From contig NZ_VOHK01000009.1 of the NCBI RefSeq assembly GCF_007859325.1, positions 1 to 64,000 on the forward strand: DNA of 64,000 bases. Direction: 5' to 3'. Shown here piece by piece: positions 42,730-53,323 of this stretch (position 1 is the stretch's first letter; each line of letters opens with the position of its first letter). The stretch is from Luteimonas marina (GTDB lineage Bacteria; Pseudomonadota; Gammaproteobacteria; Xanthomonadales; Xanthomonadaceae). Made by a program: the position numbers and the translations under genes. The notes below the pieces were generated by a model. The model saw nothing but the letters and a program-made list of their open reading frames with translations, had not been told where the DNA came from and ran no database searches.

Positions 42730-43138
42730 ACGTCGTCGCCCGGGCGGGATCGTCGCATCGAGGCGTCCATGGCCGCAGGACCAGGCGCCGTCCCCGGCGC
42801 CATCTTCGACATGCGGATCCCGGCGTTGCCGCACCCCTGCCGCAGGGTTGCCCACGCCCCCCCGGACCGGCATGACGCAAGCGGATGCCGCCACCGAAGT
42901 AGTGCCACGGGATCCATGCCTGCACGTCGCTGCACGGCCACGCGAACACGTGACAACGATCACTGCGGTCGATCGCCGCAGCCAATCCCGGCAAACGCAA
43001 TGCGTGTTCGATCCTTCGCAGTTGCCACGGCCATGTACTGCCGATGCCGTGGGCCTCGAAGCACAACACCTCGCGCGCAAGGATCAGTTCACCGGGAATG
43101 CTGGAAAGACCCCGCAACAGCCAGGTCTCGCTGCGCAT
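42695..43138 (-). CDS. Hypothetical protein with a possible PH-like domain; C-terminus doubtful
   Basis: 147 residues from MRSETWLLRGLSSIPGELIL; a longer start at 43228 adds 30. Residues 1-85 read like a real domain: repeated beta-strand-like stretches (GELILAREVLCFEAHG; CHVFAWPCSDVQAWIPWHYF) and WPWQLRRIE, suggestive of GRAM/bacterial PH folds. After WHYFGGGIRLRHAGP the frame becomes Gly/Arg-rich and runs 35 nt into the end of dnaE. A run of seven Gs (on the minus strand, near 42857-42863) lies just where quality drops, so a frameshift there is possible. It is the last gene of the minus-strand lipoprotein set, 108 nt after the preceding stop (18 nt if the longer start is used). Function unknown. 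Confidence 0.5.
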   Translation of the reverse strand: MRSETWLLRGLSSIPGELILAREVLCFEAHGIGSTWPWQLRRIEHALRLPGLAAAIDRSDRCHVFAWPCSDVQAWIPWHYFGGGIRLRHAGPGGRGQPCGRGAATPGSACRRWRRGRRLVLRPWTPRCDDPARATTFSSPRGARATV

Positions 43139-43246
43139 CTCCCCACGGGATGCAGATCGCGCTTGCGTTTGATCCCAGCGAGCGGCAGCGATCATGTGCA
43201 CTGCGTCGCACATTGTCGGCCCTGTCAACCCAAGCCAGCGCCCATG

Positions 43247-44230
43247 TCAGCGCGAACCCGGTGGCGACGACGTCCATGCCGCCGCCAGTGCAAATGCTTC
43301 CGCACGTGCTTCGTGCTCGCGACGGCAGCGCCTGGCGGCGATGTCGGCGTCGCGGTCGGCGCCGATGTATTGCTGCATCCGCTTGTGGTTGGCCTGCGCC
43401 AGGCAGGCATGCAGTTCGCCATCCTCCGGCAGCGGAGCGAGATGGATCGGGTGCATGAGGAGCGCATGCTCGACCTCGTCGTAGACCGCGGCCGGGGCCG
43501 TGGTCACCGCGACGTCGGCATCGAACCATGCGCTGGGCGCCGCCTCCGCAGGATCCATCCCAAGCCATGGCCCACCGGTTTCGACATATTCCATGCCGAT
43601 GTACATGCGTCCACGCATCGCGTCCTCACCCTGGGCGAAGCGGAAATGCACGATGTCCATGTTCTGCGCATCGTAAGGACTGCGCTTCGCAGCCTGCTCC
43701 AGCACCAGCGCCTCTTGGTCGGCATAGCGTGAACGCACGAGGGCTTCTGCGTGACGACGAGTGACGGCTTCCATCCCGCCGCTGCGGATGCGCGGGATGT
43801 CGTCGGTTGCCGCGATCCGCTCCGTCGGCAAGCGTTCCCGCCGGCTGCGACCATCGGCGGACACGAAAATCCAATGCAGGCAGGACGATCGCATGCAGTT
43901 CGCCGCCACGCGGATCTCGCCCTTCCAGTCCGGCGGCGGAACCCCCCGCACGCGCTGCAGCACCAGGTCCGCATAGGCGCCCCGCCCATGCACCATGATC
44001 CGTCCGTCGGCGCTGTCGCGTTCCAGCGGTGGCTGTGGCGTGTGAGGCGTGTCCGCGGCGGCATTGACGTCCAGCCGCTCCTGCGAGGCCCATGAGCGGA
44101 CATCGCCACGCGCATCGAGACTCCCCGACGATTCCGGGCCGCCACAGGCCGTTGTTGCCAGCAACACCGCCACTCCCGTCGCAATCCGCGCGCCCCAGGC
44201 ACGACGCCTACACGTCGCGAGGGTATTCAC
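43247..44230 (-). CDS. Putative lipoprotein, partner of the first paralogue
   Basis: 327 residues from a GTG that overlaps the stop of the preceding lipoprotein gene (GTGA). N-terminus with Arg-rich start, hydrophobic stretch IATGVAVLLA and lipobox TTAC. The mature part has paired cysteines (NCMRSSCLHW) and the blocks YADLVLQRVRGVPPPDWKGE, DIVHFRFAQGEDAMRGRMYI and AVYDEVEHALLMHPIHLAPL, ending in a charged helix (RRCRREHEARAEAFALAAAW). No known family is recognised and it is not a relative of the three long paralogues. Strict coupling suggests the two products act together outside the inner membrane. Confidence 0.75.
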   Translation of the reverse strand: MNTLATCRRRAWGARIATGVAVLLATTACGGPESSGSLDARGDVRSWASQERLDVNAAADTPHTPQPPLERDSADGRIMVHGRGAYADLVLQRVRGVPPPDWKGEIRVAANCMRSSCLHWIFVSADGRSRRERLPTERIAATDDIPRIRSGGMEAVTRRHAEALVRSRYADQEALVLEQAAKRSPYDAQNMDIVHFRFAQGEDAMRGRMYIGMEYVETGGPWLGMDPAEAAPSAWFDADVAVTTAPAAVYDEVEHALLMHPIHLAPLPEDGELHACLAQANHKRMQQYIGADRDADIAARRCRREHEARAEAFALAAAWTSSPPGSR

Positions 44231-45432
44231 GGGATGCGCTCGAGTTCGGTGGCGTTGGAGGGCTGGTAGTACGGATCGTGGGTGCTCCACGCATTGTTCG
44301 GATTGTCGTTGTCCTGGAACACGCGCGAGCCACCGTGGATGCTCGACTGCACGGTGCCGCCCCCGTTGCCGGCGTAGGTGTCGTATTCGCCGATCGCTTC
44401 CAGCCCGCGCCGATGCATGCCGTCGTTGGTGGCGACGGTGTTGGCGTGGGTCCGGGCGTAGATGCCGGCCACCTCGCGCTGGGTCTGCGCACGGATCCCG
44501 GCACGGTCCGCCTCGCCGCGCGCATTGATCTGCGCCATGCGCCCTTCGTGCCACTGGTCGATGCCCTGGCGCTGCGCGGCGTAGTAGCGCTGGAGCGTCC
44601 CCGTCACCCGCTGCCTGGCATCGGCCATCCATTGCGGGTCCGGCTGGATGGTCATGGCGATGCGATCGGCGAGTCCGACATCCAGCTGGCCGTTGCGTGC
44701 CCGGTTGGCCACGATCTCGGTGCTGGCTGCGGTGGTGTTGCCGCGGAACGACGAGAAGCTGACGCCGGACGACAGCACCTCGCGGATCTCAACACCTTCC
44801 AATGTGTAGCCGATCAGCAGGTGCCCGGCCTCGATACGACGTTGCTGACCCGCATCCGGAATCCCGCCCCCTTGAGCCGCCTGCTCCATCCTGGCCACGC
44901 CTTCGGGCCAATCCATGTAGTCGAGCACGCGCGCATCCGGGCGGAACTGTGCCGCCACGGATTCAAGGAACGCGCGGACGCTGCGATACGGGGCCGCCGG
45001 ACAGGGATTGGTGGGGAGCTCGGTGCCCTGCACTTGCCAGGACGCGGCCGGCACCAGCCGGAACGCGGCGATTCCATCCGGCGCCGTCGCCGTCCACGCG
45101 ACCTGCAATCCGCCGCTGCAGACGTCGCCATTCTCCCAGCGCACGCCGCCGCTCATCCGCCAACCGGCCGGCACCTGCACCGTGTAGGCAAGGCGTGGCG
45201 AACCGAAACCGGCTTCGTCCATGATCTGCACCGGTGCCAGTTGGCCGGTGCCGGCATGCACTGGCACTGGCGCCGTCTCAGCATCGCCACCCCCGGCCCA
45301 TGCCGATCCCGCATCCAGCTGGCCGTCACCGCCAACAGAGTCAGGCCACTGCGTGCCTGCACCTGTGCCACCACAGGCGGAAAGCGCCAATGCCACCGCC
45401 AGTACACGCGTGGTCCTGATCATCGTCTTCAT
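44227..45432 (-). CDS. Lipoprotein paralogue 1 with ELERIP tail
   Basis: 401 residues. Signal peptide MKTMIRTTRVLAVALALSAC with lipobox LSAC. N-terminal domain (about 75-200): PVQIMDEAGFGSPRLAYTVQ, VPAGWRMSGGVRWENGD, then FLESVAAQFRPDARVLDY. A helical middle (about 260-330) with WHEGRMAQINARGEADRAGI, and a C-terminal tail with SSIHGGSRVFQDN, DPYYQPSNATELERIP. The tail is shared almost unchanged with the genes at 45598 and 47559. A two-part promoter-like element lies 37 nt upstream (45470-45497). The chosen ATG is followed at once by the signal peptide; upstream in-frame codons add nothing. Function unknown. Confidence 0.82.
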   Translation of the reverse strand: MKTMIRTTRVLAVALALSACGGTGAGTQWPDSVGGDGQLDAGSAWAGGGDAETAPVPVHAGTGQLAPVQIMDEAGFGSPRLAYTVQVPAGWRMSGGVRWENGDVCSGGLQVAWTATAPDGIAAFRLVPAASWQVQGTELPTNPCPAAPYRSVRAFLESVAAQFRPDARVLDYMDWPEGVARMEQAAQGGGIPDAGQQRRIEAGHLLIGYTLEGVEIREVLSSGVSFSSFRGNTTAASTEIVANRARNGQLDVGLADRIAMTIQPDPQWMADARQRVTGTLQRYYAAQRQGIDQWHEGRMAQINARGEADRAGIRAQTQREVAGIYARTHANTVATNDGMHRRGLEAIGEYDTYAGNGGGTVQSSIHGGSRVFQDNDNPNNAWSTHDPYYQPSNATELERIP

Positions 45433-45469
45433 GCCTTGCTCCCCGGCGGACATCGCCATTCACTTCACG

Positions 45470-45497
45470 AGGCGCAGAATGGGTTGATTCCGGCTCA
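45470..45497 (-). promoter_or_regulatory. Shared two-part element, copy 1
   Basis: Minus strand TGAGCCGG (45497-45490), 14 nt, GCGCCT (45475-45470); 37 nt to the ATG of lipoprotein paralogue 1. Same words and same spacing as at 46810, 48849 and 48899. Confidence 0.7.
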
Positions 45498-45597
45498 TCG
45501 CGGCGCCAGCCCGTCGCCGGCATCGCCGGAAAACAGGCCGGCTCGCGCAGGCAGGCCAGCCGGGGACATCTTGCGGGGCTGGACGACGATGCTCGTT

Positions 45598-46776
45598 TCA
45601 GCGGATCCGTTCCAGCTCGGTCGCATTCGATGGTTGTGCATGGGGATCGTCGGTATTCCAGACATTCGACGTCCTGCTGTTGTCCTGGAACACGCGCGAA
45701 CCCTCGTGGATCGAGCTGTAGACCGTGCCGCCATGGATGCCGGCATACGCATTGCGTTCGTAGATGCCATCGATGGTGCGCGCATGGATGCGGTCGTTGG
45801 TGGCCTGGGTGTTGGCATAGGTCTGTGCCCGCATCGCGGCCACCTCGCGCGTGGCGCGCGACCAGATCGCGGCACGGTCGGCGGCCCCCTTGGCGTTGAT
45901 CTCGGCCATGCGCCGCGCGTGCCAGGCCTGGATCTGCTTGAGCTGTTCGGCGTAGAAATGATTGACGTTGGCCTGCACGCGCTTGACCGCCGGCTCGGCC
46001 CACTCCGGATTCTCTTCGATGCTGCCGACGATCCGGTCCAGCAAGCCCATGTCGAGCTGGCCGTTCGGCGCGCGGTAGGCATCCACGCGACCGGCACCGG
46101 CGACAATGTTGCCGTTGGATTTGACCCGGTTGAAGGTCACCGCCACGGCAAGCACTTCACGCATGTCGACACCATCGGCCTCATACCCGATCAGCACGCG
46201 ACCCGCGTCGAAGCGCTGCTCGACCTCCGCAGGCGGCGGTTGCCCGTGGCGGCGCGCCGATTGTTCGGCGCGGGCGGCGTGCTCGGGCCAGTCGCTGTAG
46301 TCCAGCACCCGCGCGTTGGGCCGTGCCTGCATGGCGACGGCTTCCAGCAGTTCGCGTGCGGAGCGGAAGGGCTCCACCGGGCATGGATCCACCGGCAGCT
46401 CGGTGCCCTTCACCTGCCAGACGAACGCCGGATACATCTCGTACACGCTGACGTTGTCCGGTGCGACCGCCGCCCACGTCACGCGCGCCTGGTGCGAGTA
46501 GCACTCGGCCTTGTCGTTCCACTGCACGCCACCTGCGGTCTGCCACCCTCTGGGCACCTGCAGCCGGAAGGCCACCATCGGCGTACCGAATCCGGACGTG
46601 TCGACAATCTCGACCGGCACCAGCCGGCGCGTGTCAGACGTCGCGGAGCCGTGCGCACCGGACGCTTGCGTTGCCGCGACGCGTCCATCGCCCGCATCAC
46701 TCGCCGACCCGCATGCCGACAGCGCGAGCAGCACCGCGGCCGCGCACATGGTCCTCCGACCGATTCCCCTGAACAT
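45598..46776 (-). CDS. Lipoprotein paralogue 2 with ELERIR tail
   Basis: 392 residues. Signal peptide with lipobox LSAC (MFRGIGRRTMCAAAVLLALS). Same layout as paralogue 1: PVEIVDTSGFGTPMVAFRLQ, VPRGWQTAGGVQWNDK, GTELPVDPCP, NARVLDYSDWPE; a helical part with WHARRMAEINAKGAADRAAI; tail SSIHEGSRVFQDN and DPHAQPSNATELERIR. Unlike the other two it has no coupled partner gene; 165 nt of non-coding DNA follows to paralogue 1. The N-terminal domain keeps two cysteines (AECYSH and DPCP) that align with those of the paralogues and may form a disulfide. Confidence 0.82.
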   Translation of the reverse strand: MFRGIGRRTMCAAAVLLALSACGSASDAGDGRVAATQASGAHGSATSDTRRLVPVEIVDTSGFGTPMVAFRLQVPRGWQTAGGVQWNDKAECYSHQARVTWAAVAPDNVSVYEMYPAFVWQVKGTELPVDPCPVEPFRSARELLEAVAMQARPNARVLDYSDWPEHAARAEQSARRHGQPPPAEVEQRFDAGRVLIGYEADGVDMREVLAVAVTFNRVKSNGNIVAGAGRVDAYRAPNGQLDMGLLDRIVGSIEENPEWAEPAVKRVQANVNHFYAEQLKQIQAWHARRMAEINAKGAADRAAIWSRATREVAAMRAQTYANTQATNDRIHARTIDGIYERNAYAGIHGGTVYSSIHEGSRVFQDNSRTSNVWNTDDPHAQPSNATELERIR

Positions 46777-46809
46777 GGTGTCCCCCTTCGATGCCCGAAC
46801 TCTCCTGCA

Positions 46810-46837
46810 AGGCGCAAAGACACGCGCAACCGGCTCA
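46810..46837 (-). promoter_or_regulatory. Shared two-part element, copy 2
   Basis: Minus strand TGAGCCGG (46837-46830), 14 nt, GCGCCT (46815-46810); 33 nt to the ATG of paralogue 2. Confidence 0.7.
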
Positions 46838-46878
46838 TCGGCGCGCCGCGGTGCATGCCGCCGCGGCGACGATCCGAC

Positions 46879-47562
46879 TCACCGACCCTGGCCGCCCTGC
46901 CCGTCCATCGCGTTGCGCACCGGGAAGCCGGCCTGGCGCCAGGCGTCGATACCGCCGCGATACCAGTGCACGTTGCCGTAACCCATCTCGATCGCCCGCA
47001 GTGCGGCGTTGTACGAGCCCCAGCAGTGCGTGCCGCCGCAATAGACCACCAGCATCTTCGACTTGTCGCCGCCGGTGGCCTGCTGCAGATACTGGCCGAA
47101 ACCCTGCTGGACCTGGTCGTCGAAGCTGCCGCCCTGCGCGGCAGGCACCACCGCCACCGCGCCGGGCAGATGTTCGGGACCGGCATAGGCATGCAGCAGC
47201 AACACCTTGCCCTGCCCGCCCTGCAGCAGTTGCGCGAGCTGCTGCGTGCCGATGACCCTGCCGCCGGGGATCGCGGTCGGGGTCGGACCGCCGAGCTGGT
47301 CGGACGGACGCAGCTGCGGCGTCGGCGCCACGCCGAAGTCCTGCGCTTCGCCCGATGCCGCCGGCGGCGCGAACCGCGGTTGCCCGGACTGCATGGAGGG
47401 ATCCGGCCGCGCCTGCGTCGCGCGCGGCGGCGGCGGCGGGGACGGCTGGCGCTGGCCGGAACCACCGAAGCTGTCCTGCGCCTGGAGCGCCGGCGCGACG
47501 GCAAGGCACAGGAGGGTCGCGACTGCGGATGCCAGCGCCAGCCTGCGGGACAGGCCGGTCAC
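46879..47562 (-). CDS. Periplasmic rhodanese-like protein with Cys-x4-Cys-Trp motif
   Basis: 227 residues. A signal peptide (about 1-28, ending VAPALQAQ) without lipobox, a Pro/Gln-rich linker (29-100) and a single rhodanese domain: GGRVIGTQQLAQLL, then VVYCGGTHCWGSYNAALRAI and GYGNVHWYRGGIDAWRQAGF. The active-site loop has two cysteines followed by Trp, resembling the CxxCW rhodaneses found near PQQ-dependent enzymes. A GTG start overlaps the stop of paralogue 3 (GTGA), so it is that lipoprotein's partner. Possible roles are sulfur transfer or thiol redox chemistry on the lipoprotein; this is inference. Confidence 0.85.
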   Translation of the reverse strand: MTGLSRRLALASAVATLLCLAVAPALQAQDSFGGSGQRQPSPPPPPRATQARPDPSMQSGQPRFAPPAASGEAQDFGVAPTPQLRPSDQLGGPTPTAIPGGRVIGTQQLAQLLQGGQGKVLLLHAYAGPEHLPGAVAVVPAAQGGSFDDQVQQGFGQYLQQATGGDKSKMLVVYCGGTHCWGSYNAALRAIEMGYGNVHWYRGGIDAWRQAGFPVRNAMDGQGGQGR

Positions 47563-48809
47563 GGGATGCGCTCCAGCTCGGTGGCGTTGGCCGGATCGTG
47601 ATAGGGATCGTTGCTGCTGTAGACGAGGTTCGGATCGCTGTTGCCCTGGAACACCCGGCTACCACCGTGGATGCTCGACTGCACCGTGCTGCCGTCGGTG
47701 CCGGCGTAGCTGTTGTACTCGCCGATGCCTTCCATCGTCCGGCGGTGGATGTTGTCGTTGGTCGCGCTGGTGTTGGCGGCGATGGCGCTGTAGATCCCCG
47801 CCACTTCCTGGTTGGTGCGCATGCGGATCGCGTGGCGGTCCGCGGCACCGCGGGCGTTGATGATCGCCATCTGCCGGTTGTGCCAGTCGTTGATGCTGCG
47901 GGCCTGGCCGTCGTGGAAGCGCTGCATGCTGGCCATGCTGCGCTGCTTCATCGCCTCCATCCACTGCGGGTTGGGCCGCATCGACTGCGCAACGCGCCCG
48001 CCCAGCTCCATGTCGAGGCCGCCGTTGGGCGCGCGCAGCGAATGGATCGTGGCAGTGCCGCCGACGATGTTGCCCTGCGTCTGCGAGAAGGTGACCGCCG
48101 CGGTCAGCATCTCGCGCATGTCGACGCCGTCCTTGTCGTAGCCGATCAGGATGCGCCCGGCGTCATGGCGCACCTGTGCCTGCGGGTTCGACTGCCCGGC
48201 CTGTGCCATCTTCTGCTCGACGTCCGGCAGGCGCTGGTAGTCGAGCACGCGCGCGCCGGGGCGCGTGCGCTGCAAGGTGGCCTCGAGGAATTCTCGGGTC
48301 GAGCGGTATGGCGCCGCCGGGCAGGGATTCATCTGGATCTCGGTGCCGGCCACCTGCCAGCTGAAGCCGGGCAGGATCTCGATCGCGGTCAAGCTGTCGG
48401 GTGCGATCGCGCCCCAGGCGACCTGCAGCTGGTTGCCGATGCAGTTGGTCGAATCGTTCCAGCTCACGCCGCCCACGGTCTGCCAGCCGGCCGGGATCTG
48501 CACCTCGGAAGCGACCATCGGCTGCGCGAAGCCGTTGCCGTCGACGATCTGCGCCGGCTGCAGGCGCGAGGTATCGGGCGGCGGCGGCATCGGCGGCGGC
48601 GCGGCCTGCCGCTGCAGCGCCTGTCCCTCCGGCGCGGTGGCCAGCATGCCCTGGTCGGCCTGCAGCGCCTGCCCCTGCGGCCACCCCGGCGCCTGGCCGC
48701 CGTCGTCCAGCGCCTGCCAGCCATCGTTCTCCGACGCACCGCCACCGCACGCCGCCAGCGCCAGTCCCAGCACCGTTGCCGTCACGCCCGTTCTGATCCC
48801 GTTGCCCAT
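47559..48809 (-). CDS. Lipoprotein paralogue 3 with ELERIP tail
   Basis: 416 residues. Signal peptide with lipobox LAAC (GVTATVLGLALAACGGG), then a Gln/Pro-rich linker of about 55 residues absent from the others. Domain words match the paralogues: PAQIVDGNGFAQPMVASEVQ, IPAGWQTVGGVSWND, GTEIQMNPCPAAPYRSTREF, GARVLDYQRLPD; helical part WHNRQMAIINARGAADRHAI; tail SSIHGGSRVFQGN, DPYHDPANATELERIP. First gene of the set, 420 nt from the sigma-factor stop on the same strand, and coupled to the rhodanese gene. The ATG at MGNGIRTG was chosen because the signal peptide starts there. Confidence 0.82.
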   Translation of the reverse strand: MGNGIRTGVTATVLGLALAACGGGASENDGWQALDDGGQAPGWPQGQALQADQGMLATAPEGQALQRQAAPPPMPPPPDTSRLQPAQIVDGNGFAQPMVASEVQIPAGWQTVGGVSWNDSTNCIGNQLQVAWGAIAPDSLTAIEILPGFSWQVAGTEIQMNPCPAAPYRSTREFLEATLQRTRPGARVLDYQRLPDVEQKMAQAGQSNPQAQVRHDAGRILIGYDKDGVDMREMLTAAVTFSQTQGNIVGGTATIHSLRAPNGGLDMELGGRVAQSMRPNPQWMEAMKQRSMASMQRFHDGQARSINDWHNRQMAIINARGAADRHAIRMRTNQEVAGIYSAIAANTSATNDNIHRRTMEGIGEYNSYAGTDGSTVQSSIHGGSRVFQGNSDPNLVYSSNDPYHDPANATELERIP

Positions 48810-48848
48810 GGTCGTCCCCGGGGGCCCGGATGGCCCTGTCCCCCTTCC

Positions 48849-48876
48849 AGGCGCAGGACGCCGCGAAACCGGCTCA
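48849..48876 (-). promoter_or_regulatory. Shared two-part element, copy 3
   Basis: Minus strand TGAGCCGG (48876-48869), 14 nt, GCGCCT (48854-48849); 39 nt to the ATG of paralogue 3. Confidence 0.7.
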
Positions 48877-48898
48877 CGCAGGCGGCAGGCGCCCGGCG

Positions 48899-48926
48899 TG
48901 AGCCGATCCGGCCGGAATCCGCGCCT
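48899..48926 (+). promoter_or_regulatory. Shared two-part element, copy 4 (divergent)
   Basis: Plus strand TGAGCCGA (48899-48906), 14 nt, GCGCCT (48921-48926); 45 nt to the ATG of the 70-residue ORF. It lies back to back with copy 3, 22 bp apart. Confidence 0.6.
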
Positions 48927-48971
48927 TGTCGGGTAAACGGCCCGCACGGCCGCTTCCAGGGGGACCTCCGC

Positions 48972-49184
48972 ATGCTCGACCGCACCCGCCCGCCATGCGC
49001 CACCCGGCGCGAGCTCTATGCGCGCATCGCCGGTAGCGCCGGCGAACACGACGTCCGCCGCGCCGAACGCCTGCTGCTGCGGGCGCTCGAGCGGCAGTGG
49101 CCGCAGGTGCGGCTCGAACGCCTGCTGGCGCTGCTGCTGCGGCGCACGGGCGGCGACGCGACCGCCGCCGGGTCGATGCCATGA
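48972..49184 (+). CDS. Small basic helical protein, hypothetical
   Basis: 70 residues: MLDRTRPPCATRRELYARIA, then a helix with HDVRRAERLLLRALERQW and VRLERLLALLLRR, strongly basic and amphipathic. AGGGGGACC lies about 10 bases before the ATG. The fourth copy of the shared promoter-like element lies just upstream, which supports it being a real gene of the same set. It is convergent with the sigma-factor gene, 44 nt away. No family recognised. Confidence 0.5.
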   Translation: MLDRTRPPCATRRELYARIAGSAGEHDVRRAERLLLRALERQWPQVRLERLLALLLRRTGGDATAAGSMP

Positions 49185-49228
49185 ACCAGGACTACCGCAC
49201 GCCGTTCGAGCGCCTGCGCCAGGCCTGG

Positions 49229-49789
49229 TCAGCGCTGATCCGCCAGAGCCTCGAACAGCCAGCTGCGCGCGACCTGCCAGTGGCGCTTGACCGTGGCCGG
49301 GGAACTGTCCAGCGCCGCGGCGGTTTCCTCGATGGTCAGGCCGCCGAAGTAGCGCAGTTCGACGATCTTCGCCTTCTCGGCGTCGAAGCGCTCGAGCGCG
49401 ACCAGCGCACCGTCCAGCGCGGCGACGTCGATGTCGTCGCCACTGCCGTCGGCAAGGTCGATGCTGGTGATTGACACCCGCTCGCCGCCATCACGCTTGT
49501 GCGCCGATCGCCGCCGGGCGTGGTCGACCAGCACCTCGCGCATCACCCTCGCGGCCATGTGCACGAAATGAACGCGGTCGCGCCACTCGATGCGATCCAG
49601 GCCGCTCAGGCGCAGGTAGGCCTCGTTGACCAGTGCGGTCGCCTGCAGCGTGTGCCCGGCGCGTTCGCCGCCGATCTGGCGCTGCGCGATCGCGCGCAGC
49701 TCGGGATAGAGCGCATCGACCAGGCGATCGCGCGCGGACAGGTCGCCCTGCCGCCAGTCCGCAAGCCATTGCGTGAATTCCCCGCTCAC
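49229..49789 (-). CDS. ECF43-like RNA polymerase sigma factor (EcfK-type)
   Basis: 186 residues from GTG (VSGEFTQWLADWRQGD). Sigma region 2 (about 18-90, with HTLQATALVNEAYLRL and RVHFVHMAARVMREVLVDHA) and region 4 (about 125-180, LRYFGGLTIEETAAALDSSP). This is the ECF class encoded beside membrane Ser/Thr kinases. In Xanthomonas citri EcfK, phosphorylation by PknS of a threonine in region 2 (reported as T51) switches the factor on; here residue 51 is also Thr, in HTLQAT. No anti-sigma gene is present. The kinase gene diverges from it with 107 nt between starts. A longer start at 49834 is less likely. Confidence 0.9.
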   Translation of the reverse strand: MSGEFTQWLADWRQGDLSARDRLVDALYPELRAIAQRQIGGERAGHTLQATALVNEAYLRLSGLDRIEWRDRVHFVHMAARVMREVLVDHARRRSAHKRDGGERVSITSIDLADGSGDDIDVAALDGALVALERFDAEKAKIVELRYFGGLTIEETAAALDSSPATVKRHWQVARSWLFEALADQR

Positions 49790-49896
49790 GGCGGCAAGTC
49801 TAGCAACGGCCGCGGACGCCGCGCACGTGGGCAAGGCGCCGCACTTTTGCTAGCGTCGCGACGTCGGCACGATCTCTGCCGGTGCCGGGAACCGGA

Positions 49897-52269
49897 ATGA
49901 ACCCATCCACCGAGGGCGCAGTGCTGCAATGGTTCGAGCGCGCGCTCGACCAGCCCGCCGACGAACGCCGCGCATGGCTCGACGCACAGGCGCTGCCGGA
50001 ATGGCTGCATCTTCGCGTGATGCGCCTGCTCGACGCGGAAGCCGGGATCGGCGACTTCTTGGAACAGCCGGCGGCGGCACCGGAGCCCGACGGTTTCCCG
50101 CAGCTCGGGGAACGCATCGGCAACTACCGCCTGGCCAGCCGCATCGACAGCGGCGGCATGGGCGTGGTCTATCTCGCCCAGCGCGCCGACGACGCCTACG
50201 ACCAACAGGTCGCGGTCAAGCTGATCCGCCCGCTGCACCTGGGCGCGAACGCCGCGTTCCGCGCACAGCTGATCGCCCGCTTCGAGAACGAACGCACCCT
50301 GCTCGCCCGGCTGGGACACCCCAACATCGCCCGTATCCTCGACGGCGGCACCACCGCGTCGGGACTGCCCTGGCTGGCGATGGAGTACGTCGACGGGATC
50401 TCGCTGATCGACCACTGCGACCGCAACGGCCTCGATGTCGAGGCGCGCCTGCGCGTGTTCCGCAAGGTCTGCGACGGCGTGCAGGAAGCGCATCGCCACC
50501 TGATCGTGCACCGCGACCTGAAGCCGGAGAACATCCTGGTCGGCGCCGACGGCGAGCCGCGCCTGCTCGATTTCGGCATTGCGCGCATGCTCGACGCGGG
50601 CGAGACCGGATCCGCGGAACACCTGGTCACCTCGCTGACCGCGATGACGCCCGCCTACGCCAGTCCCGAACAGGTGCGGCACGAGCCGACCACCACGCGT
50701 TCGGACGTGTATTCGCTGGGCGTGATCCTGTACCAGCTGACCTCCGGCATCCGCCCGTACGAGCTGGCCGGGCTCAGCCCGGCGCAGGCCGAACGCACCA
50801 TCTGCGATACCCGGCCCCGCGCCCTGCGCGACGCGTTGCGCTCGGCGCCGCTCGACGATGCCGAGCGCCGCCGCCGGATGGCGGGACTGGACGGCGACCT
50901 CGAGCGCATCGTCGCCAGGGCCATGCACAAGGACGTCGAGCGCCGCTACGGCTCGGCGCAGGAGCTCGCCGACGACATCCGCCGCCACCTCGACGGCCGG
51001 CCGGTGCTGGCGCATCCCGATTCCGCCACCTACCGCCTGCGCAAGTTCGTCGGCCGCCATCGGCTGGGCACCGCGCTCGCCACGTTCGCCACGCTCGCGA
51101 TCCTGGGCGCAGCCGGCATCGCGGCATGGCAGGCGCGGCAGGCCGCGCGCGCGGCCGACGACATGCGCCAGGTCAACGCCTTCCTGATGGACGTGCTGTC
51201 GATGTCCGACCCGTTCAACAGCGGCGGCGAGCTCACCCTCAGCCAGGCGCTGGACGGCGCCGCCGAACGCATCGACGGACATTTCCCCGGCCGCCCCGAC
51301 CTGTCGGCGGAGGTCCGCTTCGGCATCGGCTACAGCATGGTCAGCCGCTATCGCCTGGAGCAGGCGGAAACCCAGCTCGAACGCGCGCGGCAGGAAAGCG
51401 AGGCGGTGTTCGGTCGCGACGACGTGCGCACGATCCGCGTCGTCGAGGGCCTGGCCGGGCTGCGCCACGAGCAGGGCCGCATCGACGAGGCCATCGCGCT
51501 GTACCACGACGGCATCGCGCGCTGCGAGCGCGCGGGACTGCGCAAGGACCCGGTCTACCTCTACCTGGTCAACAACCTCGGCATGCTGTTCATGACCCAG
51601 GACCGCTATGACGAGGCCGACGCGATGCTGCAGCGGACGCTGGAGATCTGGCGCGCCTCGCACGATGGCGGCGAGGCGGGCACCGACCACGCCAACCTGC
51701 TGTCGAACCTCGCCCAGGTCGCGCACGAGAAGGGCGAACACGCGCGCTCGGACCAGCTGTACCGGCAGGCGCAGGCGGAGCTCGAATCGCTGTTCCCCGC
51801 CGGCAGCCCGGACCTGGCGATCGTGCTCGGCAACCGCGGCCAGCTGGCCGAGGACATGGACGACAGCGACGGCGCGCTCGCGCTGTACCGGCAATCGCTG
51901 GCAATGCGCGAACGGATGTTCAAGGGCGATCATCCCAGCCTCGTCGTCGGCCTGGGCAATGTCGCGCGGCTGTCGGCCGAGGCCGGCGACACCGCGACCG
52001 CGCTCGAGACCGCCCTGCGCGGCGCCGAAATGGCCGACCGCGTGTACACCGGGCCCAGCGGCCGCCACGCCAGCGCCTGGGCCACGCTGTCCGCGGCGCG
52101 GCTGGCCGGCGGCGACACGAACGGCGCCGCCGAGGCCCTGCGCCGCGCACGGCACCTGCTGGCCGCCGTCGAACCGCCCACGCCTTCGGTGAAAAGCTAT
52201 CTGGACCGCGTCGCGGCCCGCCTGTGCGCCGCGCCTGGCGCACAGGCAGCCGATTGCGCCGCCCCCTGA
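49897..52269 (+). CDS. Membrane Ser/Thr protein kinase with TPR sensor domain (PknS-like)
   Basis: 790 residues. A short N-terminal helical part, then a Hanks-type kinase domain (about 75-345): glycine loop IDSGGMGVVYLAQR, VAVKLIRP (catalytic Lys), HRDLKPEN with D207, DFGIAR at about 225 and YASPEQ. One membrane helix at about 389-410 is followed by a periplasmic part of about 375 residues with several tetratricopeptide repeats (RYRLEQAETQLERARQES; ANLLSNLAQVAHEKGEHARS). All catalytic residues are present. It is the probable activator of the divergent sigma factor; the TPR part is exported and may sense the signal. Confidence 0.93.
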   Translation: MNPSTEGAVLQWFERALDQPADERRAWLDAQALPEWLHLRVMRLLDAEAGIGDFLEQPAAAPEPDGFPQLGERIGNYRLASRIDSGGMGVVYLAQRADDAYDQQVAVKLIRPLHLGANAAFRAQLIARFENERTLLARLGHPNIARILDGGTTASGLPWLAMEYVDGISLIDHCDRNGLDVEARLRVFRKVCDGVQEAHRHLIVHRDLKPENILVGADGEPRLLDFGIARMLDAGETGSAEHLVTSLTAMTPAYASPEQVRHEPTTTRSDVYSLGVILYQLTSGIRPYELAGLSPAQAERTICDTRPRALRDALRSAPLDDAERRRRMAGLDGDLERIVARAMHKDVERRYGSAQELADDIRRHLDGRPVLAHPDSATYRLRKFVGRHRLGTALATFATLAILGAAGIAAWQARQAARAADDMRQVNAFLMDVLSMSDPFNSGGELTLSQALDGAAERIDGHFPGRPDLSAEVRFGIGYSMVSRYRLEQAETQLERARQESEAVFGRDDVRTIRVVEGLAGLRHEQGRIDEAIALYHDGIARCERAGLRKDPVYLYLVNNLGMLFMTQDRYDEADAMLQRTLEIWRASHDGGEAGTDHANLLSNLAQVAHEKGEHARSDQLYRQAQAELESLFPAGSPDLAIVLGNRGQLAEDMDDSDGALALYRQSLAMRERMFKGDHPSLVVGLGNVARLSAEAGDTATALETALRGAEMADRVYTGPSGRHASAWATLSAARLAGGDTNGAAEALRRARHLLAAVEPPTPSVKSYLDRVAARLCAAPGAQAADCAAP

Positions 52270-52363
52270 GGGCCCCGCGCCGCCATCCCCGACCGCACGC
52301 CCGGGTACGGTGGTTCGAGCCGCCGTCGGCTAGACTGCGCGCTTCCCCGCAGCAGTCCCGGGC

Positions 52364-53323
<960 letters not shown>

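Follow-up and report, generated by a model that had tools for sequence, protein, structure and literature searches.

A block of lipoprotein, sigma factor and kinase genes in Luteimonas marina (assembly GCF_007859325.1, contig NZ_VOHK01000009.1) contains a short two-part DNA element that is repeated with constant internal spacing, which raises the question of what protein recognizes it. The element, TGAGCCGR-N14-GCGCCT, occurs in four exact copies between positions 45470 and 48926 of the window, the 64,000-nucleotide stretch of the contig that was analysed. Three copies are on the minus strand and one is on the plus strand. Comparisons with related genomes provide the best overall explanation: the element is very probably the core promoter recognized by the neighbouring extracytoplasmic function (ECF) sigma factor of the ECF43 type (49229-49834) and by its orthologues, which would be activated through the adjacent Ser/Thr kinase.

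Four exact copies of the element in the L. marina genome

Three of the elements precede genes of lipoproteins. Element 1 (45470-45497, minus strand) is located 37 nucleotides before the ATG at 45432 of lipoprotein A, element 2 (46810-46837, minus strand) 33 nucleotides before the ATG at 46776 of lipoprotein B, and element 3 (48849-48876, minus strand) 39 nucleotides before the ATG at 48809 of lipoprotein C, where the element is also found in Luteimonas sp. J29. Element 4 (48899-48926, plus strand) is divergent from element 3, is oriented towards the 3' end of the sigma gene, and lies 45 nucleotides before the ATG at 48972 of a 70-codon open reading frame. The start codons from which these distances were measured were chosen by us, guided by the position of the lipobox. 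The spacers of the four elements are pairwise 21-50% identical and the 30 bases downstream 23-47%, and the two blocks are identical except for the R position. The pair of elements 3 and 4 shows 62% identity across the 60 upstream bases, which is explained by the presence, in each of these stretches, of the mirror image of the other. The coupled partner genes of lipoproteins A and C lack the element. The original prediction, made from the letters of the window, had described four exact copies at these positions and strands, 33-45 nucleotides from start codons, with dissimilar 14-nucleotide spacers and without a copy before the coupled partner genes, and all of these statements were confirmed.

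The prediction had also proposed a genome-wide search. The genome of 3,910,508 bases in 21 contigs does not contain a fifth exact copy, all four copies belong to the cluster, and a control search with the pattern read backwards gave no match. From a third-order Markov model of the window, 0.29 chance copies per genome and 0.00025 per 3.5 kb would be expected. When one mismatch was allowed, there were 17 copies and 12 in the backwards control. Only the exact form is therefore above background, and we do not claim a wider regulon. The best reading is that the regulon of L. marina would comprise the local cluster only. An RNA element was considered and rejected: no Rfam family reached the cut-off in 43000-52500, and blocks held at a fixed spacing around a free spacer give no hint of a hairpin.

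Conservation of the 14-nucleotide spacing in related genomes

The spacing was analysed at loci selected by protein homology. A search with lipoprotein C gave matches with E<=0.001 in 15 of 297 genomes of the same family, 12 of them with E<=1.1e-30, and matches in 12 of 200 genomes of the order. All strong lipoprotein matches outside the L. marina genome are represented by 18 regions (L062-L079; 279,687 bases); weak matches with internal stops in genomes G085, G127 and G173 lie outside these regions. The pattern TGAGCCNN-Nk-GCGC[CA]T has 17 occurrences at k=14 in the 18 regions. The remaining values of k from 2 to 40 contribute 13 in total, and none of them more than 5. The reversed sequences of the same regions contain one match in all. 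The k=14 sites are distributed over 12 of the 18 regions. The regions from G002 and G037 were known beforehand to carry the element, and the other 16 regions provide 14 of the k=14 sites. Of the regions that do not contain a k=14 site, L073 and L075 have relaxed forms of the element before the lipoprotein gene. The four regions from the family labelled f9 (L076-L079), which are on short contigs, encode relatives of the lipoprotein, and neither a k=14 site nor a sigma gene was found in them. Five of the 13 off-spacing matches have k=11 and belong to a single conserved run of kinase codons, encoding SHPNVARI, in L067, L068, L070, L071 and L072. They were rejected as promoters, being a coding match that mimics both blocks.

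Two conserved blocks at a fixed distance, separated by a spacer that is not conserved, correspond to the bipartite organization of ECF-type promoters. Typical ECF promoters have the form TGAAAC-N16-CGTA/C or GGAAC-N16-17-CGTC. Like them, the element lies near a start codon and consists of two short blocks, the cores of which are separated by a constant distance of about 16-17 nucleotides. It differs from them in sequence, since TGAGCC and TGCGCCT do not exactly match these consensus sequences.

Co-occurrence of the element with the sigma factor

The distribution of the sigma factor was determined using a search profile built from 12 orthologues. Among the 297 family genomes, 14 contain the orthologous sigma factor (284-363 bits), and the next match scores 216. 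The 14 include every one of the 12 genomes in which the lipoprotein has a strong match. The refined pattern TGAGCCRRNTN11TGCGCCT was found in nine of the 297 genomes (11 sites; 4 sites, counted by eye, in the backwards control), namely in seven of the 14 genomes with the sigma factor and in two of the 283 without it (Fisher 3e-9). Two of the matches to the refined pattern, L167 in G316 and L169 in G188, look like chance occurrences. At the level of the order, nine of 250 genomes contain the pattern (12 sites; backwards control 2), eight of the 13 with a sigma factor of at least 283 bits against one of the remaining 237 (3e-11). Setting the cut at 284 bits changes these numbers to seven of 12 and two of 238 (2e-9). 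The order sample includes 54 family genomes, most of which, judged by eye, are also in the family sample. Outside the family, four of the six order genomes with the sigma factor contain the pattern and none of the 190 others does (2.5e-7).

Relaxed forms extend the co-occurrence. With one mismatch allowed, 17 sigma-bearing genomes contain 45 sites, the exact ones included, against 11 in the backwards control, and only one of the 17 is without such a site. Lengthening the pattern by one base gave a match in one of the 297 family genomes (L162), which looks like chance. The unrefined pattern of the original prediction matched in 14 of 61 relatives, with 23 sites and 8 in the backwards control; 13 of the sites are in five genomes with an orthologue of the sigma factor. 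The comparison of related genomes, which the prediction had suggested as a check, thus shows that the 14-nucleotide spacing is kept and that the signal accompanies the sigma orthologue. The suggestion that the neighbouring ECF sigma factor uses the element as its promoter signature gains support from the spacing, from the co-occurrence, and from the distant sites described below.

An ECF43-type sigma factor next to a Ser/Thr kinase

The sigma gene (49229-49834, minus strand; the start may be the GTG at 49786) and the gene of a 790-residue Ser/Thr kinase (49897-52269, plus strand) are adjacent and divergent. The sigma factor matches profile TIGR02999 (Sig-70_X6), which we take to be equivalent to ECF43, with 203.9 bits at a cut-off of 126.15, and PF07638 with an E-value of 1.3e-47. 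The kinase belongs to PF00069, has the HRD motif at residue 205 and the DFG motif at residue 225, and contains a likely membrane helix near residues 392-410 and a tail of tetratricopeptide repeats (TPR). Threonine 66 of the sigma factor is located in the sequence LQATALVNEAY, which contains a QATA motif of the QxTA type. In an alignment of orthologues, all 12 of 12 share Q64 and T66; the threonine motif was placed by eye. According to excerpts of three papers, the acidic DxxD or DAED sequence of region 2.2 is replaced in such proteins by a threonine motif, QTTA in ECF43, QATE in EcfK and STTA in EcfP, where phosphothreonine stands in for the usual acidic contact to RNA polymerase (PMC13147305, PMC8103513, PMC8999054). 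The profile match, the QxTA threonine and the adjacent Ser/Thr kinase fit the assignment to ECF43/TIGR02999, as had been predicted for this protein.

The phylogenetic tree of 57 sigma rows, 53 of which are different, contains one clade of 21 with support 99/98. This clade includes 16 of the 17 loci that have a site with a score of at least 18 within 5 kb, whereas such a site is present in one of the 36 other rows. The weight matrix that provided the scores was derived from 28 hand-picked sites; all of them start with TGAGCC, and the lack of variation in this block reflects that selection. As clade members served to train the matrix, the result is a description more than an independent test. 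Sixteen of the 57 rows have flanks of only 1.5 kb, in which a site is less likely to be detected.

Probable targets in relatives and action in trans

In relatives, the element precedes target genes that encode lipoproteins, rhodanese proteins, the kinase, secreted subtilases, an M23 peptidase and further exported proteins. The gap between the element and the start codon in sigma-bearing relatives is mostly about 20-60 nucleotides, and in a few cases, depending on the choice of start codon, 6-12 nucleotides. Several of the sites are distant from the sigma gene. In G171, contig 121 carries the lipoprotein gene preceded by the element, and contig 142 carries the sigma gene. G146 has the element 59 nucleotides before the gene of a secreted subtilase on contig 3, and its sigma gene is on contig 5. 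A relaxed element in G099 precedes by 43 nucleotides the gene of an exported protein with a beta-lactamase fold on contig 1, with the sigma gene on contig 6, and in G039 the element is 39 nucleotides before the gene of an exported protein on contig 21, with the sigma gene on contig 82. These are draft genomes, but even for adjoining contigs the positions place tens of kilobases between the site and the sigma gene. A relaxed site in G347, ahead of the lipoprotein gene, is 1.17 Mb from the sigma gene on the same contig. The location of sites on contigs other than that of the sigma gene indicates that the link works in trans.

In the family labelled f2 (three of three genomes with the sigma factor), sites precede genes of a subtilase-type protein, a beta-propeller protein, an M23 peptidase and others. 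Two pairs of site and gene are common to G048 and G057 (L033/L021 and L036/L032), and their 14-nucleotide spacers differ by 1 and 3 changes, respectively. The element precedes the kinase gene in the genus labelled g61 (G160 included), in G171 and, in a weaker form, in G039. In Lysobacteraceae bacterium JHOS43 (L086, 10016-10043), an element with one mismatch is 47 nucleotides before another kinase gene, which lies downstream of the pair of sigma and kinase genes. We guess that the secreted hydrolases might belong to an outward-directed response, by analogy with EcfK, which serves defence against amoebae.

Exported proteins encoded behind the element in L206, L080, L089 and L250 have a stretch resembling LFADGFE, IFANGFQ, LYADGFD or IFASGFE soon after the signal peptide. 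In the genus of L. marina, a site of the refined form is located upstream of the gene of an exported protein that looks by eye like an outer-membrane barrel (L029; G012:C5:181494-181521).

Alternative explanations for the element

Several observations weigh against the assignment of the element to the neighbouring sigma factor. The sigma gene in the window does not have an element of its own. Seven of the 14 sigma-bearing family genomes lack the exact refined form, several of them having relaxed forms. The clade sigma factors L084, L087, L089 (with a weak site scoring 10.3), L090 and L216 do not have a site of score 18 within 5 kb. Outside the clade, a site with a score of 19.9 faces away from an ECF43-like sigma gene in an Acidobacteria metagenome-assembled genome (MAG; L091, 6845-6872), which may be due to chance or to a wider spread of the signature. 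Ten sites of the unrefined pattern are in nine relatives not known to carry the sigma factor, a number near the 8 of the backwards control; a sigma orthologue was not found in the three of these relatives that were searched (G022, G040 and G053). The counts of the refined pattern are partly circular, since it was shaped on sites from some of the counted genomes, and the overlap of the family and order samples means that the two counts are not independent. Among the four matching genomes outside the family only G039, which fits, had not been seen before. The bit-score cuts were chosen after the results, within a wide gap in the family (284 to 216) and a narrower one in the order (283 to 245).

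The two blocks resemble each other (TGxGCC) and are 21 bp apart, about two helix turns, so the sites could be direct repeats, TGAGCC and TGCGCC, bound by a tandem activator or repressor. We consider this improbable. A direct repeat would have interchangeable blocks, and among the occurrences of TGxGCC-N15-TGyGC[CA] in the 18 regions, 19 have A in the first block and C in the second, 5 have all other letters, and the combinations AA and CA never occur; this bias makes an operator less likely. CA can replace CC in the second block of the collected sites but not in the first, with the reservation that these sites were selected for starting with TGAGCC. The distance of 33-45 nucleotides to the start codon in the window is too short for a separate downstream promoter, and no sigma-70-type promoter was found in 43000-50200, where only 0.5 was expected from shuffles. 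The position, orientation, fixed spacing and asymmetry of the blocks, together with the co-occurrence with the sigma factor, fit a promoter with -35 and -10 blocks better than an operator.

Co-occurrence cannot name the protein that recognizes the promoter, and a different sigma factor encoded elsewhere in these genomes could be responsible; L. marina has four matches to the sigma profile with E<=1e-40, the neighbouring sigma factor included. The chance of this appears slim, because the element tracks the neighbouring orthologue (seven of 14 genomes against two of 283), though 240 of the 297 family genomes have some sigma relative with E<=1e-40. The grouping of 16 of the 17 site-bearing loci in one clade points in the same direction, with the reservation about the training of the matrix given above. 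It is hardly conceivable that the elements are functionless leftovers from lipoprotein gene duplication. In favour of such an origin, the three lipoproteins are paralogues with 46-53% identity, but the blocks are unchanged between flanks and spacers that have diverged to 21-50% identity, apart from the one mirror pair. Moreover, the fourth copy is not before a lipoprotein gene, and both blocks are retained in further genera and a second family, as well as, in relaxed form, in a second order. Since the signal accompanies the sigma factor across genomes, mostly ahead of genes of exported proteins and of the kinase, recognition of the element by the neighbouring sigma factor is very probable, and we infer from it the promoter activity of the element and its dependence on this protein.

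Proposed mechanism of promoter activation

Based on the genome comparisons and on the EcfK and EcfP systems, a mechanism can be proposed. The adjacent membrane kinase may sense a signal from the envelope or from outside the cell through its TPR tail and phosphorylate the conserved QxTA threonine of the sigma factor. The phosphorylated sigma factor would bind RNA polymerase and fire the promoters. The block TGAGCC(G/A)(G/A)WT would serve as the -35 block, read by region 4 of the sigma factor, and TGCGC(C/A)T as the -10 block, read by region 2, with a constant N14 separating the 8-mer from the 6-mer. The output in L. marina would consist of the three paralogous lipoproteins and the two partner genes coupled to lipoproteins A and C, along with a short transcript in the divergent direction. 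The final step, from the sigma factor to the promoters, is based on the sequence comparisons, and the presumed earlier steps are modelled on EcfK and EcfP.

A close parallel is the EcfK/PknS pair of Xanthomonas citri, in which an ECF43-type sigma factor is encoded beside a membrane Ser/Thr kinase, likewise in Xanthomonadales (PMC13147305). Both sigma factors have the conserved QxTx threonine in region 2.2; EcfK is activated through its kinase, and the same is presumed here. The systems differ in their output, as EcfK controls a type VI secretion system, whereas the element is linked to lipoprotein and rhodanese genes. In the EcfP/PknT pair of Vibrio parahaemolyticus, as described in excerpts of two papers, EcfP is inactive until the neighbouring kinase phosphorylates a threonine in the usual DAED region, and its regulon, differing from the one proposed here, confers polymyxin resistance (PMC8999054, PMC8103513). 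The consulted excerpts of four papers do not contain an ECF43 promoter sequence (PMC13147305, PMC8103513, PMC8999054, PMC6653060), and we do not claim novelty for the signature.

The ECF43 sigma factors are a leading case of sigma factor activation by Ser/Thr phosphorylation. A promoter signature that is sharp, rare and transferable would enable the targets of ECF43 sigma factors to be read from the genome sequence alone. For the clade described here, the signature points to lipoproteins with a fold like that of PsbP/Mog1, rhodanese proteins of the CXXCW type, the kinase and secreted hydrolases. It could also provide a ready reporter for the signal that the kinase senses.

The divergent site and possible feedback

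A site in antisense orientation at the 3' end of the sigma gene is present in four loci. It is exact in the window, in Luteimonas sp. J29 (L082) and in G328 (L062), and relaxed in the MAG Hydrocarboniphaga YM.9 (L083), which belongs to the family Nevskiaceae of the order Nevskiales. In G328 and YM.9 the site and the sigma gene are separated by about 60-100 nucleotides without a clear gene, and no relative of the 70-codon open reading frame was found near the site. The short gap and the lack of a relative of the reading frame make an antisense transcript of the sigma gene possible. We speculate, as a rather doubtful proposal, that element 4 might drive a sigma-dependent antisense transcript into the 3' end of the sigma gene, by which the sigma factor would damp its own mRNA. 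The first product of this transcript in both Luteimonas-type genomes would be a small conserved protein, coupled to a second open reading frame. The element before the kinase gene in genus g61 (G160 included), in G171 and in G039 would create positive feedback. If this is true, one promoter would have been placed for opposite feedback in different lineages.

The 70-codon open reading frame (48972-49184, plus strand) has a 73-codon counterpart in Luteimonas sp. J29, with 27 of 48 core residues identical. The two differ by 24 changes in third codon positions against 12 in first and 14 in second positions. A second small open reading frame of 97 codons (49181-49474, plus strand) starts in an ATGA overlap with the first and is mostly antisense to the sigma gene; its reality is uncertain. 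The overlap arrangement, ATGA or GTGA to the second reading frame, recurs in Luteimonas sp. J29 (L082).

Genes downstream of the elements

All three lipoproteins contain a lipobox. Lipoprotein A (401 residues; 44227-45432, minus strand) has the lipobox LSAC and does not match any Pfam family with E<=0.1. Its stop codon overlaps, in the sequence GTGA, with the start of the gene of a 327-residue partner protein (43247-44230, minus strand), for which no family was above the cut-off. Lipoprotein B (392 residues; 45598-46776, minus strand) also has the lipobox LSAC. The stop codon of lipoprotein C (416 residues; 47559-48809, minus strand) overlaps in the same manner, in GTGA, with the GTG start of a 227-residue protein with a rhodanese domain (46879-47562, minus strand; PF00581, 6e-12). 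The rhodanese-domain protein also matches the profile TIGR03865 (PQQ_CXXCW) with an E-value of 5e-26, yet remains under the cut-off of that profile.

The structure of lipoprotein C was predicted from an alignment of 22 sequences, with a mean predicted local distance difference test (pLDDT) score of 82 and scores below 50 for the first 64 residues. The model comprises a fold similar to PsbP/Mog1/DcrB and a long helix. The modelled alpha-beta domain resembles that of cyanobacterial PsbP (2xb3; E 1.2e-4) and, more weakly, those of SciW, EagT6, DcrB and LpqN. Lipoprotein C differs from proteins with the PsbP/Mog1/DcrB/EagR-like fold in sequence, with about 6-14% identity and no Pfam family above the cut-off, and in the predicted addition of a helix of about 80 residues and a beta-rich tail.

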